Shown here: piece after piece, positions 2,938-28,874 of the stretch
Position numbering within the stretch: the first letter of the stretch is position 1
Layout: the number at the start of each line of letters is the position of its first letter
DNA from: a virus
Virus record (IMG/VR): IMGVR_UViG_3300005253_000533
Location: 1 to 31,636 of that record
Length of the DNA stretch: 31,636 nt
Direction: 5' to 3' (one strand)
The notes under the pieces: model-generated
Seen by the model: the letters and a program-made list of their open reading frames with translations, nothing else
What the model was told of the DNA's origin: nothing
Databases searched by the model: none
Made by a program: the position numbers and the translations under genes

Positions 2938-3072
2938 ATGAACAAATATGCTATAGTTGATTCTAAAGGAAAAATTATAGAGAAATTCAGAAATAAAATT
3001 ACAGCTAAAACATTAATAGTTAATTTAAAACGTGAGTATTATGAAGAACTTAAAATTGTGAAATTAGAATGA
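2938..3072 (+). CDS. Small hypothetical protein (44 aa)
   Basis: The start at ATG 2938 is chosen because AAAAAAGGT lies close upstream. An in-frame ATG at 2860 would give 70 residues but would overlap the zinc-finger gene by 32 bases. The product begins MNKYAIVDSKGKIIEKF, a beta-hairpin-like pattern, followed by a helix (TAKTLIVNLKREYYEELKI). It overlaps the methyltransferase by four bases (ATGA). Function unknown. Confidence 0.55.
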   Translation: MNKYAIVDSKGKIIEKFRNKITAKTLIVNLKREYYEELKIVKLE

Positions 3073-4184
3073 AAAATGAAGAAAAAAAAGAAATCAAATA
3101 CTTCAGTATGTTTACAGGAGTCGGAGGATTCGAACTTGGGTTCTCAAATATATCAAAGACCAAGAGGAACAAATTTAGGGGGGATGAAAAAGATTCCAGG
3201 AGCATTGAGTCAATCAAGTTGGCAAGACAACAATTTACTTGTGTTGGATTCTCTGAAATTGACAAATACGCAAGTGAACTCCTTAAACAAAAATTTCCAA
3301 ACATCAAAAACTATGGAGATGCAACAAAAATTAATCCCACAGAACTCCCAGACTTCAATCTTCTTGTTGGGGGATTTCCTTGCCAAGCGTTTTCAATTGC
3401 TGGAAAACGTAAAGGCTTTGAAGATACAAGAGGTACATTATTTCACGAGATTGTTAGAATCCTTGAAGTTAAAAGACCTGGAAATATTCTCCTTGAAAAT
3501 GTTAAAGGGTTATTATCACACGATAGAGGGAGAACGTTTGCAATTATCCTTGCCTCACTTTCAAAGTTGGGGTATGTTATACAATGGGTGGTTCTTAACA
3601 GCAAGTTTTTTGGAGTTCCCCAGAACAGAGAAAGGGTGTTCATTATCGGAAGTCTTACAGGAGAACCCATCCCAGAAATATTACCTCTCAGAGAAAGCAG
3701 TGAAGAGATTGTTGGAAAAGACAAACACAAAGTTGCACACACAATTGAGGCAAACTATTGGAAAGGACCAAGCACTTACGGAAGTAGAACAATGATAAAT
3801 GTAATAAATAATCCAAGAGGACAAGGATTTGAAATGAATAAAAGAATTTATGGAATAGATGGAATAGCACCTACTCTTCAAAGTCAAGAGACAGAAGTTA
3901 AGATACATTCATTATATCCAAGAAGTGGAAATCCTAATCAAGGTGGAACTGGACATTTGAGTAAAGAAGATAATACAAGTTATAATTTAGATACAGGAAA
4001 TATGCAAGTTATAGAAATGGAAGGAATGAAAATTCGTAGATTAACTCCAATAGAATGTGAAAGACTTCAAGGTTTTCCAGATAATTGGACAGAAGGATTT
4101 TCAGATACTCAAAGATATAAGATGATGGGAAATGCAGTAACTGTTAATGTTATAAAAGCAATTGGAGAAAAATTAATAAAATGA
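3069..4184 (+). CDS. DNA (cytosine-5) methyltransferase
   Basis: The product has 371 residues with the canonical C5 order: motif I FTGVGGFELGF (15-25), motif IV GGFPCQAFS with catalytic Cys105, motif VI ENVKGLL (143-149), motif VIII QNRERVFIIG (185-194), a target-recognition region with APTLQS, motif IX RRLTPIECERLQGFP, and motif X MGNAVTVNVI near the end. All catalytic elements are present, so it should be active. It is a solitary methylase with no restriction nuclease partner beside it, so protection of viral DNA from host restriction is likely. The first two thirds (to about 3795) are richer in C and G and use CTT/CTC/CCC codons rarely seen elsewhere in the window, coinciding with a second open frame. 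Confidence 0.95.
   Translation: MKNEEKKEIKYFSMFTGVGGFELGFSNISKTKRNKFRGDEKDSRSIESIKLARQQFTCVGFSEIDKYASELLKQKFPNIKNYGDATKINPTELPDFNLLVGGFPCQAFSIAGKRKGFEDTRGTLFHEIVRILEVKRPGNILLENVKGLLSHDRGRTFAIILASLSKLGYVIQWVVLNSKFFGVPQNRERVFIIGSLTGEPIPEILPLRESSEEIVGKDKHKVAHTIEANYWKGPSTYGSRTMINVINNPRGQGFEMNKRIYGIDGIAPTLQSQETEVKIHSLYPRSGNPNQGGTGHLSKEDNTSYNLDTGNMQVIEMEGMKIRRLTPIECERLQGFPDNWTEGFSDTQRYKMMGNAVTVNVIKAIGEKLIK
3076..3795 (+). CDS. Possible overlapping gene in the +1 frame of the C5 methylase (239 aa)
   Basis: An ATG 7 nt after the methylase start opens a frame of 239 codons with no stop, long for AT-rich DNA. The C-terminal part reads FPRTEKGCSLSEVLQE, then KYYLSEKAVKRLLE. From memory this resembles phage ORFs found with cytosine methylases (pattern SLSDILE..P.KYYLS.KA..IL). 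The composition anomaly of the methylase gene ends about where this frame ends, as expected if both frames are constrained. No ribosome site of its own is evident. The alternative is a by-product of the unusual composition, which also opens minus-strand frames here. Confidence 0.4.
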   Translation: MKKKKKSNTSVCLQESEDSNLGSQIYQRPRGTNLGGMKKIPGALSQSSWQDNNLLVLDSLKLTNTQVNSLNKNFQTSKTMEMQQKLIPQNSQTSIFLLGDFLAKRFQLLENVKALKIQEVHYFTRLLESLKLKDLEIFSLKMLKGYYHTIEGERLQLSLPHFQSWGMLYNGWFLTASFLEFPRTEKGCSLSEVLQENPSQKYYLSEKAVKRLLEKTNTKLHTQLRQTIGKDQALTEVEQ

Positions 4185-5796: not shown

Positions 5797-6429
5797 ATGA
5801 GTAAAGAATACCATAAAATAAATTCAATCTTTAAAAGGGATGAAAAGACAAAAGGATTTACAAAGGAATATTCCCTTCCAGAGTTTGAATTTTTAAAAGA
5901 TAATCTTTGGGAATTTACAGAAAAGATAGATGGGACTAATGTAAGAATTATTTGGGATGATGAGGAATTGAAATTTGGAGGAAAAACTGATAATGCACAA
6001 ATGCCTATGAAGTTATTAGAAAAGTTACAGAGCATTTTTACAAAGGATAAGATGAAAGAATTTTTCCCAGATGGAAGGGTTTGTTTATATGGGGAAGGAT
6101 TTGGAGTTAAAATTCAATCAGGTGGAAAGTATATCCAAGATGGGGTTGATTTTATTTTATTTGATGTGTTGATTGATGGTTGGTGGTTAAATAGAAATTC
6201 AGTAGAAGATATTTCTAATAAATTAGAAATAAAGATTGTAAAGTTAATTGGTGAAGGGAATTTAAATGATGCTATTGAAATTTCTAAAAAGGGATTTAAT
6301 TCAGAATTTGGAGAGTTCATTGCAGAGGGAATAGTTTTGAGACCAAAGGTTCAATTATTCTCAAGAAATGGAAATAGGATAATTTCAAAAATTAAGTATA
6401 AAGATAAATTTCATGAGGAGAATTCGTAA
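5797..6429 (+). CDS. Minimal RNA ligase (Rnl2-like nucleotidyltransferase)
   Basis: The product has 210 residues. Motif I is EKIDGTN with the adenylated lysine at K43. LYGEGFG and VDFILFDVLIDGWWL supply motifs III/IIIa, EGIVLRP (about 178-184) motif IV, and SKIKYKDKF near the C-terminus motif V. These are the nucleotidyltransferase motifs of the RNA ligase/mRNA-capping/DNA ligase superfamily, and the order and IKYKDKF ending favour the Rnl2 RNA ligases. It is much shorter than T4 Rnl2 (334 aa), so it is essentially the catalytic domain alone. Phage RNA ligases repair tRNAs cut by host anticodon nucleases, so an anti-defence or RNA-repair role is a reasonable inference. Confidence 0.85.
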   Translation: MSKEYHKINSIFKRDEKTKGFTKEYSLPEFEFLKDNLWEFTEKIDGTNVRIIWDDEELKFGGKTDNAQMPMKLLEKLQSIFTKDKMKEFFPDGRVCLYGEGFGVKIQSGGKYIQDGVDFILFDVLIDGWWLNRNSVEDISNKLEIKIVKLIGEGNLNDAIEISKKGFNSEFGEFIAEGIVLRPKVQLFSRNGNRIISKIKYKDKFHEENS

Positions 6430-9120: not shown

Positions 9121-9291
9121 ATGAAAATAAAAATAAAGGATTGGAAAGGGCTTGAAAGATTGTTTAATAGAGATGACCATGAACTGTTTAAAATAATTTG
9201 TGTTAGTTTTTATGATAATAAACTTGAAAGCGTAGAATTTGAAAAGGATACAAACAGGAGGCTAAAAAGGTTTGAAAATGGAACAAAATAA
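9121..9291 (+). CDS. Hypothetical protein (56 aa)
   Basis: ATG 9121 is preferred to a TTG at 9109 because of the promoter spacing. Alternating strand and helix: MKIKIKDWKGLERLFN, then FKIICVSFYDNKLESVEFE. Its last ten codons are read through the leader repeat shared with 8715-8746, overlapping the methylase start by 14 bases. Function unknown. Confidence 0.55.
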   Translation: MKIKIKDWKGLERLFNRDDHELFKIICVSFYDNKLESVEFEKDTNRRLKRFENGTK

Positions 9292-10717
9292 ATTAATACA
9301 AGGTGATTGTATTGAAGAGATGAATAAGTTAGAAGAAAACTCAGTAGATGCAATCATAACAGATCCTCCTTATGGAATTGGATTCATGGGAAAAGAATGG
9401 GATAATTTCAAACCAGAACATATACAAGAGGCCATGGAGAATGATGTAAGACCTAAAAAAGGAATAGCTTCTACAAGAACTTCTAATACAGCAGGAACTT
9501 ATGATTTATCTTTAAATGCTAATCAGAAATTTCAATTATGGTTTAGTCAAGTGGCAACAGAATGTTTAAGAGTTCTAAAGCCAGGAGGATTTCTTTTAAG
9601 TTTCGGTGGAACAAGAACATATCATAGATTAGTTTGTGGAATAGAAGATGCTGGATTTGAAATAAGAGATACAATTATGTGGTTATATGGTTCAGGATTT
9701 CCTAAGAGTTTGAATATTGGAAAGCAGATTGATAAAATTCAAGGAAATGAAAGAGAAGTTATTGGGGAGAAAATTAGGGGAGATGTTGAAAAATCAAAAC
9801 AAGGAGTAACTTTTGCAGGAGCAGACGCCAATAAAAATAATAAAGATATTTTTGGATATGGAAAAGAGATTTTAACAAAAGGAAATTCTGAATGGGAAGG
9901 TTGGGGAACTGCATTCAAACCAGCATGTGAACCAATAGTAGTTGCAAGAAAACCTTTATCTGAAAAGAATGTTGCTTTGAATATTCTCAAATGGGGAACT
10001 GGTGGAATTAATATTGATGAGAGTAGGATTGGGACTGAAGAAAGAACAAATCCTCAAGCAGGTTTTATAAGACGAGGAAGAACAGATGAGGAAGTTTTTG
10101 GTGGTGTTGATAAAAATAAACCAAAAGAAAATGTTTCAGTTCAAGGAAGATTCCCTGCAAACATAATTCTTGATGAAGAAGCAGGAAAAATGTTAGATGA
10201 ACAAGCTCCATTAACAGGTGCATTTGCCCCAGTAAAATCAGGACAGAAAGGATTTGGTGGAGAGATTTATGGAAAATATGAATCAGGTGGAGATGATGGA
10301 AAAACATTTCATAATGAGAAATTACAAGGAGCATCAAGATTCTTTTATTGTGCTAAGGCAAGTAAAAGTGAAAGGAATTATGGTTGTGAAGAATTAGAAA
10401 AGAAAGAAAAATCAGGAAGTTACAAATTTAGAGAAGATGGAAGTTTAGATGGAAAGCCAACACAAGCCAAAGCTAACACACATCCAACAGTAAAACCAAT
10501 TAAGTTAATGGAATATTTAGTTAAGTTAATAAGTAAAAAAGGAGCAACAATACTTGACCCTTTCTTAGGAAGTGGAACTACTGCAATTGCTTGTCTAAAG
10601 AATAACCGTAAGTTCATTGGAATTGAAAAAGAAAATGAGTATGTTAAAATATCAAACGCAAGAATTAAACCTTATTTAGAACAAAGGACGCTTATGTCCT
10701 CTGAAAAGAAAAAATGA
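9278..10717 (+). CDS. DNA amino-methyltransferase (DPPY, N6-adenine or N4-cytosine)
   Basis: The product has 479 residues from ATG 9278. QGDCIEEMNKL, then catalytic DPPYG (29-33), come before the SAM-binding FLGSGTTAIA (about 429-438), the beta-class order. HPTVKPIKLMEYL precedes the SAM loop as in YhdJ/Dam-like solitary methylases. A long insert between them (about 150-400) probably carries target recognition. DPPY does not by itself separate N6-adenine from N4-cytosine. It is the second DNA methylase of the genome, and with no cognate nuclease it probably protects viral DNA or marks it. The gene carries GGACGC 28 nt before the next start. Confidence 0.9.
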   Translation: MEQNKLIQGDCIEEMNKLEENSVDAIITDPPYGIGFMGKEWDNFKPEHIQEAMENDVRPKKGIASTRTSNTAGTYDLSLNANQKFQLWFSQVATECLRVLKPGGFLLSFGGTRTYHRLVCGIEDAGFEIRDTIMWLYGSGFPKSLNIGKQIDKIQGNEREVIGEKIRGDVEKSKQGVTFAGADANKNNKDIFGYGKEILTKGNSEWEGWGTAFKPACEPIVVARKPLSEKNVALNILKWGTGGINIDESRIGTEERTNPQAGFIRRGRTDEEVFGGVDKNKPKENVSVQGRFPANIILDEEAGKMLDEQAPLTGAFAPVKSGQKGFGGEIYGKYESGGDDGKTFHNEKLQGASRFFYCAKASKSERNYGCEELEKKEKSGSYKFREDGSLDGKPTQAKANTHPTVKPIKLMEYLVKLISKKGATILDPFLGSGTTAIACLKNNRKFIGIEKENEYVKISNARIKPYLEQRTLMSSEKKK

Positions 10718-18282: not shown

Positions 18283-18501
18283 ATGGCACTCGGAAGATTA
18301 ATTGAAGGTTTCATTACTATATTAATTGGTGTTAATTTAATTCCAAGCGTTGCAGACCAAGTTGTTGCAGCACAAAGTGGAAACGTTACAGGATCATCTA
18401 GTACGATTTTAGGATTAGTAACTCTATTCTTTGCTTTAGGAATTATGATTGCAGGAGTTAATATTGCCGTCGGTGGACTTCAAGACGTTGGATTAGTTTA
18501 A
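18283..18501 (+). CDS. Two-helix coat protein A (spindle-virus VP1/VP3-like)
   Basis: The product has 72 residues. Helix 1 (about 8-21, EGFITILIGVNLIP) ends in SVADQV. A short loop has a GNVTGSSST sequon. Helix 2 (43-60, LGLVTLFFALGIMIAGVN) leads to GGLQDVGLV. Two hydrophobic helices around a small VTG-containing loop, with L-x-LVxLFF, is the plan I recall for major capsid proteins of spindle-shaped archaeal viruses. It has a tandem paralogue ten bases downstream. It is the first gene behind late promoter 1, as expected of an abundant product. The virus-family match is inference. Confidence 0.7.
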   Translation: MALGRLIEGFITILIGVNLIPSVADQVVAAQSGNVTGSSSTILGLVTLFFALGIMIAGVNIAVGGLQDVGLV

Positions 18502-18510
18502 ACATAAAAA

Positions 18511-18738
18511 ATGGCACTAGGAAGATTGTTAGAAGGTTTTATCACCATTCTTATTGGTGTTAGTTTAATTCCCTCTATTGCAGATCAAGTTGCTACTATT
18601 CAAAACTCTACGATTAGTAATGTTACAGGATCTGCGTCTACACTCGTTGGATTAGTAACTTTATTCTTTGCATTAGCAATTATGATTGCAGGAGTAAATG
18701 TAGCAATAGGAGGTCTACAAGATGTTGGACTTATCTAA
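18511..18738 (+). CDS. Two-helix coat protein B (tandem paralogue)
   Basis: The product has 75 residues and aligns with the preceding gene throughout: same MALGRL start, EGFITILIGV, SIADQV, VTGSAST, GLVTLFFAL, GGLQDVGL. Differences are mainly conservative, plus a loop longer by a few residues (NSTISNVTG, two sequons). Codons often differ where residues match, so the duplication is not recent. No ribosome site is obvious (AAACATAAAAAATG), suggesting re-initiation. The two coat proteins probably coassemble. Confidence 0.7.
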   Translation: MALGRLLEGFITILIGVSLIPSIADQVATIQNSTISNVTGSASTLVGLVTLFFALAIMIAGVNVAIGGLQDVGLI

Positions 18739-25183: not shown

Positions 25184-25506
25184 ACAAAAAAGGAGGATTC
25201 TTAGTCGGAACATCATTGTTATTAGCATTTTTTATTTTTGCACTAATTTTATTTGTAACTATAGAACCATTTAAAGAAAACTTAGATGTTATAAGAGGTG
25301 GAGATGCTTTAAATTGTAAGGGTACTGCAACCTTTAATCAAACAGCTTTTGATAACGATGATGGAAGTACAATAAATAAACTATCAAGAAGACCTACTTG
25401 TTTCATTACAGGTATTACAATGGTTTGGTTTATCTTTGGGTTTTTGTTTGCCTTAGTGGCTTGGTTGGCAGATCAATGGACTAGAAAGAGGAAAAGAGTA
25501 ACATGA
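25180..25506 (+). CDS. Two-span membrane protein with outer loop (108 aa)
   Basis: Helix 1 (about 7-27, LVGTSLLLAFFIFALILFV), an outer loop with two cysteines and an NQT sequon, helix 2 (about 77-96, TMVWFIFGFLFALVAWLA), and a KRKR tail inside. AAAGGAGGA within the first codons may aid expression of an alternative start. ATGA overlaps flank both ends, so it is tightly linked to the coiled-coil protein and the spike. Probably a virion membrane protein. Confidence 0.6.
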   Translation: MNKKGGFLVGTSLLLAFFIFALILFVTIEPFKENLDVIRGGDALNCKGTATFNQTAFDNDDGSTINKLSRRPTCFITGITMVWFIFGFLFALVAWLADQWTRKRKRVT

Positions 25507-28500
25507 AAAAAATAATATTAATGATGTTTGTAGTTATCCTGTTCACAGGATTACTATCAGCTTTTGAATTTGATAATGTAAAAACATATGATGAAATAGA
25601 AAGAAGTATAACTGTTCATAATGTATTTAACCTTCCTTTAATAGGAAATGATATTGTAAAAATTACTCCTTTAACTCCCCATGTGGTTTCAACATTTGCA
25701 GGACCAAATCAAACAGTAGCTATATTCCATTTAGAAAATTTCAAAGATGGTTATTCAGATGTTTGGAAAAAAATGGAATTTTATAATTTAAATAAAAATT
25801 CTAAAGAAGAAAATAGACAATTCTTTTTCCAAGAAAAAGTTATTGTGGGAACAAGAGAAAAACCAATTTATAATATAACTTGTGAAACTTTAAGTTATGG
25901 AAATGGTACAACTTATCAAGATTGTACCAGATCTATTAAAGGATATGAAACAATTGATATAACAGAATGGGAAGATTTAGATACTTCTGAACCTCTTTCG
26001 AAAGGAAATCATACTATAAGAATTGTAACAGATGTTTTTCCAAGAGATCATATGGAATTTATTCCAACTTGGTTTGGGGTTAGAATGCCTGAATATGCTG
26101 AATGGACAGCAGGACTTAATGAAGAAATAGTTTTCTATTATAACTTTGAACAAGGAGCTGGAAGTGCGATACCAGATGTAACAGGAAATTTACCAAATGC
26201 AACTTTATTTAATATGGAAGATAGTGATTGGACACTAGGAAAAATTGGAAATGGTTTGAATTTTAGTGGGGGAGATGAATCAGCAAACACAACGTATAGA
26301 ACTAGTTATTCAACTTCAGATAATTTTTCTATTAGTTTTTGGTATAATACAAATGAAAGTGTTCAAGCTTCCAGGGAATTTTTTGGAACATTAGGTGGAG
26401 ATGGAAGTGCTATTGGTCTTGATTATTCACCTGGATTAATTGCAAGATTTCGTTTCAGAGATGGTGGAACTGGAGATCTTAATCTTGCAGAAACAAGTAT
26501 TTTCAATGATGGAGATTGGCATATGCACACAATAGTTAGAGATACTGCTGCAGATACTTATGAAATTTTCTTTGATGGGGTAAGTGAAGCAAGTGCAGCT
26601 GATCCAGCAGTAGTAAATATTAATTTTAATGATGCAGCTTTCTTCTTATCTGCAAGAGGAACAGTAGGAGCACCAACGACAATAACTCGAGGAGAATTTG
26701 ATGAATTTGGTTGGTGGAACAGAAGTTTAAATCAGTCTGAAATTACACAATTATTTAATGGTGGTGATGGAATAACTTTCATTTCTGATTTTCCACCTGT
26801 TGTTAATGTAACTGTTCCATTAAATATAACTTTCAATACAACTCAAACTCAATTGAATTTTACAGTAGTAAGTGCTGGTGGTGGTTTTGACAGATGTTTC
26901 TTTTCAACAGATGGGGGAGTTACAAATTCAACTGATAATGATTGTACATCAAACTTCACAACAACTTCTGTAGAAGGGGCAAATACATGGACAGTATTTT
27001 CTAACACTACAGGAGGAGCTGTTGGACAAGACAGTGTAACATTTACAGTAAATAGTACAATACAAGTTGATTTATTTACTCCTGCAAATGATTCAAATTT
27101 TTTATCCCCTAACATTGATTTTAATTGTCAAGCAACAGATAGTCTTTCTTTAGAAAATTTAACCTTGCTTATAGATGGAATTGAAAACTTTACAAATTCA
27201 TCCACAGGATCTACTTTAATAAATTTAACAACAACCGTAATAGGAGTTAGTTTAGGACAACATACTTGGACTTGTAGAGCTTTTGATAGTGATAATTTTA
27301 ATGCCTCTGCTGCAGAAAGAATTTTTGAAATAAAGAAATTTGATGAAAATAGTCAAACATTTAATGCATTTACTTTTGAAACAAAGGATGAGGAATTTAC
27401 ATTAAATATAACAACTGATCCAAGTAGTACTCCAAGTGCTGCTAATTTAATTTATAATGGAACAGATAAAGGAGGTGGAACAATAACAAGTTTAGGAAAT
27501 AACAACTTTAATATATCTCAAACAATAGATATTCCTACAGGTTCTGGAAATAATACTTGGCTCTTTAATATAACAATTGAGGGTATATTAGGAAGTTCAC
27601 AAACTAATCAACAAAGCGTAGCCTTAATAAATTTGACATTTTGCCAAGCAGCTCCACAAGATGTTGCTTATATAAATTTTAGTTTTATAAATGAAACTAT
27701 TAATCAAGAAGATGTTACAGCATTTATAGATACATCTTGGTCATATTTCATTGGAGCAGGATCTGTAAAAAAAGATTTGATCTTTGCAAATACAACTGAA
27801 GCTTTTAGCTATTCTTTCTGTTTTAATCCTCCAAATCAAACAATAACAGGTGAAGTAAATTTAACTTACAATAATGCTCAAAGTCAACAAAGAATATTCT
27901 CTTCAATTTTCACAGTATTGACAAATTTAACAACACAACAAAATCTTTTCTTACTTCCAACACAGCTTGGATTATTTGCTCAATTTAGAACACAAGATAC
28001 ACTTGGAAATACATTAGTAAATGTTTTGGCATCAATAACAAGAACATTGGGGGGTATTACAATTAGTGTTACCTCAGATACCACAGATGGATCAGGAGTA
28101 GTTGTATTCTTCTTAAATCCTGATGTAACATATACTGGAGAGTTTAGTTTAATTGGTTTTGTAACAAATACTTTTAGTTTTGTTCCTGTTACAGATCTAA
28201 GAACGGTTGTACTGGGTTCTACAGCAACAATAGTAGTAAACGGTACCACAATTGGTTTAGGAACAGAATTTGAAATCCAACCAAACAATGATAGTCTTAA
28301 TAATAATACTCTTACAACCTTTAGTTTTAATGTTACAGGAGGAACAGGAATAACATTAATAAGTATGAATATAACTAATGGAACAAATCAACTTAGTTTT
28401 GTTAGTAATGCTGGGGTTGGATTTATTTCAGGTATTGTAGACACAGGAAATAATACTCAATTATTTGGAGAGTTTATAATCCAAACAGCCAATGAAACAA

Positions 28501-28874
28501 TAACTGTGCAAAGAATTTGGATTATTGGTCCAACATTTATTGGAGACTATTCCTTATTCAGACAATTAACCTTATTTAATGAATATGGATTTAAAGATAT
28601 TTTTAGATTTTTAATTGTGTTGGGAATAATAGTTGCTCTTTTAATATTTTTATCTGGTGAAAATCAATTAGAAGATGAAATTAAAATGCTTGTAATGTTA
28701 TTATTGATCTGGGGTTTCAGTATAGTTGGTTGGTTAGACACAGGAATAGTAGTTAGTTCTACATCGGATAAAATTAATAATCTAACACAATTTAGTAGTC
28801 AGTTTGGGATAGCCATATTAACAACTGTTGCGGCATCATACTTCATATTAAGGAGGGTATTAAGAATAATATAA
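25503..28874 (+). CDS. Large LamG-containing spike glycoprotein (1123 aa)
   Basis: A signal peptide (KKIILMMFVVILFTGLLSA) leads to a beta domain, then a concanavalin/LamG-type module (about 200-419) with FYYNFEQG, FSISFWYN, WHMHTIVRD and FDEFGWWNRSLNQSEI. Next come Ig-like repeats (LFTPANDSNF, FNCQATDSLS) and further Thr/Asn-rich beta domains to about residue 1030, with dozens of sequons. The C-terminus has three or four helices (about 1035-1123) anchoring it in the membrane. LamG modules bind sugars, so host attachment is the likeliest job. The Ig-like wording is typical of DPANN surface proteins and may be host-derived. It is the largest gene of the window. Confidence 0.8.
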   Translation: MKKIILMMFVVILFTGLLSAFEFDNVKTYDEIERSITVHNVFNLPLIGNDIVKITPLTPHVVSTFAGPNQTVAIFHLENFKDGYSDVWKKMEFYNLNKNSKEENRQFFFQEKVIVGTREKPIYNITCETLSYGNGTTYQDCTRSIKGYETIDITEWEDLDTSEPLSKGNHTIRIVTDVFPRDHMEFIPTWFGVRMPEYAEWTAGLNEEIVFYYNFEQGAGSAIPDVTGNLPNATLFNMEDSDWTLGKIGNGLNFSGGDESANTTYRTSYSTSDNFSISFWYNTNESVQASREFFGTLGGDGSAIGLDYSPGLIARFRFRDGGTGDLNLAETSIFNDGDWHMHTIVRDTAADTYEIFFDGVSEASAADPAVVNINFNDAAFFLSARGTVGAPTTITRGEFDEFGWWNRSLNQSEITQLFNGGDGITFISDFPPVVNVTVPLNITFNTTQTQLNFTVVSAGGGFDRCFFSTDGGVTNSTDNDCTSNFTTTSVEGANTWTVFSNTTGGAVGQDSVTFTVNSTIQVDLFTPANDSNFLSPNIDFNCQATDSLSLENLTLLIDGIENFTNSSTGSTLINLTTTVIGVSLGQHTWTCRAFDSDNFNASAAERIFEIKKFDENSQTFNAFTFETKDEEFTLNITTDPSSTPSAANLIYNGTDKGGGTITSLGNNNFNISQTIDIPTGSGNNTWLFNITIEGILGSSQTNQQSVALINLTFCQAAPQDVAYINFSFINETINQEDVTAFIDTSWSYFIGAGSVKKDLIFANTTEAFSYSFCFNPPNQTITGEVNLTYNNAQSQQRIFSSIFTVLTNLTTQQNLFLLPTQLGLFAQFRTQDTLGNTLVNVLASITRTLGGITISVTSDTTDGSGVVVFFLNPDVTYTGEFSLIGFVTNTFSFVPVTDLRTVVLGSTATIVVNGTTIGLGTEFEIQPNNDSLNNNTLTTFSFNVTGGTGITLISMNITNGTNQLSFVSNAGVGFISGIVDTGNNTQLFGEFIIQTANETITVQRIWIIGPTFIGDYSLFRQLTLFNEYGFKDIFRFLIVLGIIVALLIFLSGENQLEDEIKMLVMLLLIWGFSIVGWLDTGIVVSSTSDKINNLTQFSSQFGIAILTTVAASYFILRRVLRII

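Follow-up and report, generated by a model that had tools for sequence, protein, structure and literature searches.

A selected open reading frame overlapping a viral C5-cytosine methyltransferase gene recurs in phage P1 and many other phages

The window analyzed here, i.e., a stretch of 31,636 nucleotides comprising positions 1 to 31,636 of the IMG/VR virus record IMGVR_UViG_3300005253_000533, contains a gene for a C5-cytosine DNA methyltransferase (3069..4184, + strand, frame 0, 371 amino acids) within which a second reading frame, displaced by +1, is open from 3076 to 3795 on the same strand. An earlier note on this DNA had proposed a conserved dual-coding gene, while cautioning that base composition might contribute to the openness. 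Is the second frame translated into a protein that is under selection and, if so, what might that protein do? The frame itself is open exactly as had been claimed, with 240 codons from stop to stop and a product, as first called, of 239 amino acids (the stop is included in the coordinates).

The frame-0 gene is that of an orphan C5-cytosine methyltransferase. In profile searches its product matched PF00145 (E = 4.3e-85, profile positions 2-324) and phrog_116 (E = 1e-95), and it contains the sequence GFPCQAF, i.e., the catalytic PCQ motif expected of a C5-cytosine methyltransferase, as well as a motif IX-like stretch, IRRLTPIECERLQGFP, in the same frame. Single-sequence scans of viral contigs yielded no relatives of the frame-0 product and four of the +1 product. 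Elsewhere in the window are genes for an RNA ligase (5797-6429; PF09414), an N6/N4 DNA methylase (9272-10717; PF01555) and a LamG-domain protein (25503-28874), and at 18283-18738 a tandem duplication has left two neighboring ORFs for small membrane proteins of closely similar sequence (MALGRLxEGFITILIGVxLIPS...).

The shift in composition that had been described as ending about where the +1 frame ends is real, GC content being 0.394 in 3313-3792 versus 0.296 in 3796-4184, while C occupies 17% of frame-0 third positions in the former segment and 0% in the latter. When the codons of the window gene were permuted synonymously 400 times, however, the mean for the longest +1 stretch was 59 codons and the maximum 140, compared with the 240 observed. 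We also collected 160 loci using frame-0 peptides only, so that an open +1 frame was not selected for, and added a few phage and viral records from earlier searches. In the resulting usable set of 176 methyltransferase loci, 124 had a +1 stretch of at least 130 codons; 100 of these exceeded all 400 shuffles, and 115 had p values of 0.01 or less. The other 52 loci, which served as controls, behaved like their own shuffles (mean +1 stretch 59.6 codons, versus 59.0 when shuffled). Codon permutation and the control methyltransferases thus rule out composition or chance as the cause of the open +1 frame, and answer the caution about composition. The +1 products of the 117 loci in the same clade as the window end alike, with CSLSDILEE..VDEKYFLS followed by some more residues. 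As a separate observation, long methyltransferase ORFs on five viral contigs (L024, L027, L035, L081 and L093) are open not only in +1 but also in +2, there over 134-204 codons, a length reached by no shuffle.

Openness is one matter and selection another, and we examined the latter in 111 non-redundant members of the window clade (subtracting 5 from the reference residue gives the methyltransferase residue). Outside the overlap, the observed/expected ratio for frame-0 synonymous codon identity was about 0.97-1.1. It rose to 1.15-1.6 across reference residues 76-195, peaked at 2.3-2.45 at residues 196-225 and was 1.09 from residue 226; in the control methyltransferases it was mostly flat, at about 1.05. 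At residues 196-210 synonymous codon identity was 0.87, against 0.355 expected. Within this same block mean entropy was 1.09, 0.66 and 0.61 at the first, second and third codon positions of frame 0, respectively, and amino acid entropy was lower in the +1 frame (1.23) than in frame 0 (1.58). The third position of frame 0 is therefore the most conserved and the first, which is the wobble position of the +1 frame, the most variable, showing that it is the +1 product that is selected and ruling out an RNA element. With codons permuted within each sequence as the comparison, +1 amino acid identity was 0.653 versus 0.237 at residues 196-212, and the frequency of +1 stops was 0-0.001 versus 0.035-0.06 over residues 76-212, so that the scattered stops for which the earlier note had suggested looking in homologues are absent from the window's own clade. 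Stop loss of this kind was seen only in the +1 frame; the +2 and antisense frames showed raised identity as a by-product. Downstream, in the single-coding 3' part of the gene (3796..4184, + strand), which carries the variable region and motifs IX and X, there was no +1 constraint, the frame-0 ratio was 0.97-1.09 and +1 stops were at background level. Up to 3795, then, synonymous sites are strongly constrained, and past that point the constraint is gone, so that neither of the two outcomes named in the earlier note as refuting dual coding was observed. That the +1 protein is under selection we regard as practically certain, and the proposal of a conserved dual-coding gene is supported by 117 homologues that keep both an open +1 frame and a conserved product.

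The selected part does not span the whole open stretch. Synonymous constraint and loss of +1 stops both set in near methyltransferase residue 71-83, which makes ATG 3313 or 3319 the probable start of the selected ORF and gives a protein of 160 or 158 amino acids, respectively (3313..3795, + strand). A start at 3076 was rejected, there being almost no constraint upstream of residue ~76; the selected part covers about 3313-3750, and the openness of the stretch further upstream is not conserved. Dual coding from 3076, as originally envisaged, therefore stands as regards the open frame but not as regards conservation, which begins at about 3313/3319. An ATG occurs at the proposed start, inside an open +1 ORF, in 95 of the 117 homologues; since a +1 ATG is also present there in 24 of 47 controls, the start codon is offered as a proposal, and no convincing Shine-Dalgarno sequence was seen at it. 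The conserved core of the product, FLEFPRTEKGCSLSEVLQENPSQKYYLSEKAVKRLLEK (3607..3720, + strand), is marked out by codon identity, third positions, +1 amino acid identity and AF2 modeling, and overlaps frame-0 motif VIII (FGVPQNRERVFIIG) and the linker that follows it. This core of the overlap, FPRTEKGCSLSEVLQENPSQKYYLSEKAVKRLLEK, is under strong purifying selection.

A profile search with the 239-residue +1 product matched PHROG_16143 (E = 1.9e-22, residues 82-212), and there was no credible match in Pfam or NCBIfam. The motifs of the SLSEVLQE/KYYLSEKA type that the earlier note connected with phage ORFs are accordingly genuine. PHROG_16143 also covers orf14 of Streptococcus phage MM1, a relative of the product, which is annotated as "C5 methyltransferase beta subunit" and sits in the +1 frame inside orf13. 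In AF2 models of the window and P1-type products, confidence was restricted to the C-terminal 45-55 residues (pLDDT 88-96 in blocks 111-150 for the window; three helices with pLDDT 84-97 for the P1 type), and the remainder was predicted to be mostly disordered; in the window product the N-terminal 100 residues had a pLDDT under about 50. Searches of the PDB by sequence and by fold gave no usable match to the +1 product.

How widespread is the overlap? A tblastn search with the +1 product of Caulobacter phage DMCA matched 201 records from phages and 537 from plasmids, the latter mostly P1-like; among the matches were phage P1 dmt, mycobacteriophages, cyanophage Pan4, phages of Vibrio, Sinorhizobium and Streptococcus, and a Bifidobacterium plasmid. 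In the records read in detail the match lay in the +1 frame of a C5-methyltransferase, except where the annotation was split or frame-rearranged, as in FP_Toutatis. In P1 dmt (L185:1921-4185, i.e., AF234172.1 66412-68676) the +1 stretch occupies 2219-2707 of the locus, in the C5-methyltransferase half, and carries no annotation in the AF234172.1 record. In P1 Dmt-like genes, of which 72 were non-redundant and used here, synonymous identity exceeded expectation 2.1-2.6-fold at Dmt residues 166-255; beyond residue 270 the ratio was about 1.04. Only 5 of 87 P1-like loci were longer than all 200 shuffles, a test that has little power in this clade because of its GC content. In a third clade (L191-like), whose +1 family is PHROG_1008, the +1 ORFs measured 250 codons versus 101 when shuffled, 67 of 84 loci lay beyond all shuffles, and the same pattern of selection was seen. 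PHROG_1008 also matched +1 ORFs of the P1 and window types, namely those of Caulobacter phage DMCA (8.9e-6), L098 (5.3e-6) and Drs3 (0.0047), which links it with the PHROG_16143 family. In a tree of the catalytic halves, midpoint-rooted and hence giving no direction of change, the P1-like and PHROG_1008 clades separated with full support; the placement of the control methyltransferases, within a paraphyletic window clade, was weakly supported.

The signal is thus common to archaeal, Gram-positive, proteobacterial and actinobacterial elements. Dual coding had been thought unusual for an archaeal virus; the dual coding holds, but it is not peculiar to such a virus, being widespread in phages, and that it is both real and widespread seems to us almost beyond doubt. 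The overlap is found again in hundreds of phages, and in P1 it appears to have gone largely unnoticed. In most records read, the +1 ORF was without any annotation, and gene callers variously report just one of the two frames, split the dual gene or join it wrongly. In Mycobacterium phage Schatzie (L189:333-2217) an HNH endonuclease gene interrupts the methyltransferase, and the annotators were unable to place the intron boundaries, perhaps misled by the reading frames that surround the overlap.

What the +1 product might do is suggested by methyltransferases that lack the overlap. A profile of the +1 product matched frame 0 of 32 of 49 control methyltransferases (best E = 1.7e-14) and of none of the 117 dual ones. 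The matching piece lies after motif VIII, e.g., FRFPKELPLDITLKDLLEDDVPEKYYLSQK in L007, which aligns to M.HhaI up to residue 212. When a profile of this segment alone was scored at E = 1e-3, none of the 347 loci had it in both frames. It was confined to the +1 frame in all 117 window-clade loci and in 86 of the 87 P1-like ones, and to frame 0 in 21 of 49 controls and in Alicyclobacillus phage L014; 28 controls and every locus of the PHROG_1008 clade had it in neither frame at this threshold. In that last clade, motif IX is absent from the frame-0 chain in 84 of 84 loci, and a motif IX-like sequence (LNPxxVEWLMGFPxGW) occurs in the +1 ORF of 75 of the 84. In the Ruminococcus loci L123:1489-2710 and L166:1-1294 the +1 frame runs via the SLSxxLE..KY[YF]L segment into the target-recognition domain (TRD) and motifs IX and X, and gp14 of FP_Toutatis reads the motif IV/VI half and an SLSQILE domain in one frame. 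The L014 methyltransferase (Alicyclobacillus phage MMB025; 580-2079 of that locus), with the +1-like segment LLDILEDNVDEKYYISDEKAAKLLEQL in frame 0 and its +1 frame closed, is a possible intermediate between the single-chain and dual-coding forms.

The complementary distribution of the segment, the arrangement of L123 and L166 and that of FP_Toutatis make a methyltransferase partner more likely than an unrelated protein. We infer that the +1 ORF directs synthesis of a beta-like partner polypeptide of 158-160 residues, a reading that we consider somewhat better than even. Internal initiation at ATG 3313 or 3319 would yield a second protein of about 160 residues ending at 3795. Its conserved segment resembles the hinge piece that single-chain C5-methyltransferases carry between motif VIII and the target-recognition region; the frame-0 chain of the window is without that piece. 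By binding the methyltransferase it might complete or tune the enzyme, with effects on activity, DNA binding or specificity, a role modeled on the beta polypeptide of M.EcoHK31I.

A real protein might instead have a function independent of the methyltransferase, e.g., as an anti-restriction, regulatory or host-takeover factor. Overprinted genes commonly have accessory functions of their own, and the two products are separable: in L076, a near relative, the methyltransferase is intact while the +1 ORF has been lost, its frame being closed, and in Lactococcus phage 4268 (L004:1350-1932) the methyltransferase is truncated right after the overlap and the +1 ORF intact, so that neither is strictly essential to the other. 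An independent function nevertheless seems unlikely to us, because the conserved segment matches a segment of C5-methyltransferases and is distributed complementarily to it, and because one clade places the catalytic motif IX in the +1 product.

Less probable still is programmed ribosomal frameshifting, which would fuse motifs I-VIII to the CSLSDILE..KYFLS tail in a short isoform. The single-frame reading of FP_Toutatis gp14 would fit this, and constraint is indeed strongest at the 3' end of the overlap, but ahead of the core the +1 frame stays stop-free and constrained over about 100 codons, a feature for which a slip further downstream gives no reason, and no slippery site was noticed in an unsystematic look. 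That there is no second protein, the open frame resulting from composition, horizontal transfer or an RNA or DNA element, can be given almost no credence: the overlap region does show a GC shift, and in members rich in GC chance accounts in part for the long +1 stretches, but permutations that keep protein and codon usage fail to produce the open frame, the wobble pattern and +1 amino acid conservation specifically fit +1 coding, and the signal is shared by all four kinds of element named above.

The proposed partnership has precedents among two-chain enzymes. In work by Lee and colleagues in 1995, the beta polypeptide of EcoHK31I was reportedly encoded inside the alpha gene, in a different frame, and was needed for methylation. 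M.EcoHK31I is a heterodimeric C5-methyltransferase of two polypeptides, alpha and beta, in which the larger subunit carries motifs I-VIII and X and the TRD and the smaller one motif IX only (PMC3404938). As described, this allocation is shared by the L191-like clade, with motif IX missing from alpha and present in the +1 product. In the window, by contrast, motif IX stays in frame 0 and lies beyond the end of the +1 product, so that an obligate split of the EcoHK31I type is not implied; set against EcoHK31I by description, the window product is also shorter, and its core is the post-motif-VIII segment. M.AquI is likewise a two-chain C5-methyltransferase, which L123 and L166 resemble in having motifs I-VIII in one frame and the TRD, IX and X in the other. 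However, AquI is split within the variable region, whereas here the frames overlap by more than 100 codons, and the window's frame-0 chain is complete for motifs. Closer to the window is MM1 orf14, a homologous +1 ORF in the same gene and at the same position. Its family, PHROG_16143, had already glimpsed the overlap, but as an annotation only: our literature searches found neither a selection analysis or function for it nor any description of this methyltransferase overlap. Phage P1 Dmt has the same +1 ORF, ending in CAGILRRGEKRRKSLPPLLQMALQSVAKA and under the same constraint, in its C5-methyltransferase half, but is fused to an adenine methyltransferase, and its +1 core has an added helical tail (GILRRAEKRGK..LP..L..AL).

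To our knowledge, long conserved overlaps on the same strand are seldom met outside compact viral genomes, and most of those known come from one lineage each. The present overlap is found in three clades of methyltransferase, in elements of archaeal, Gram-positive, proteobacterial and actinobacterial type, phage P1 among them. Tentatively, a very widespread class of phage and viral C5-methyltransferases may be obligately dual-coding, with motif VIII in frame 0 and the hinge segment in +1, supplied in trans as a second subunit. Single-chain enzymes might then be derivatives in which the overlap was resolved, or the +1 protein might represent a new means by which phages regulate DNA methylation. 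Should the +1 product prove to be a subunit, there are many orphan methyltransferases of phages whose expression will have included or omitted an unrecognized partner, a partner that recoding of the gene would have eliminated from any assay. The system would also provide a testable model for two protein chains arising from the same DNA and later becoming fused or separated.
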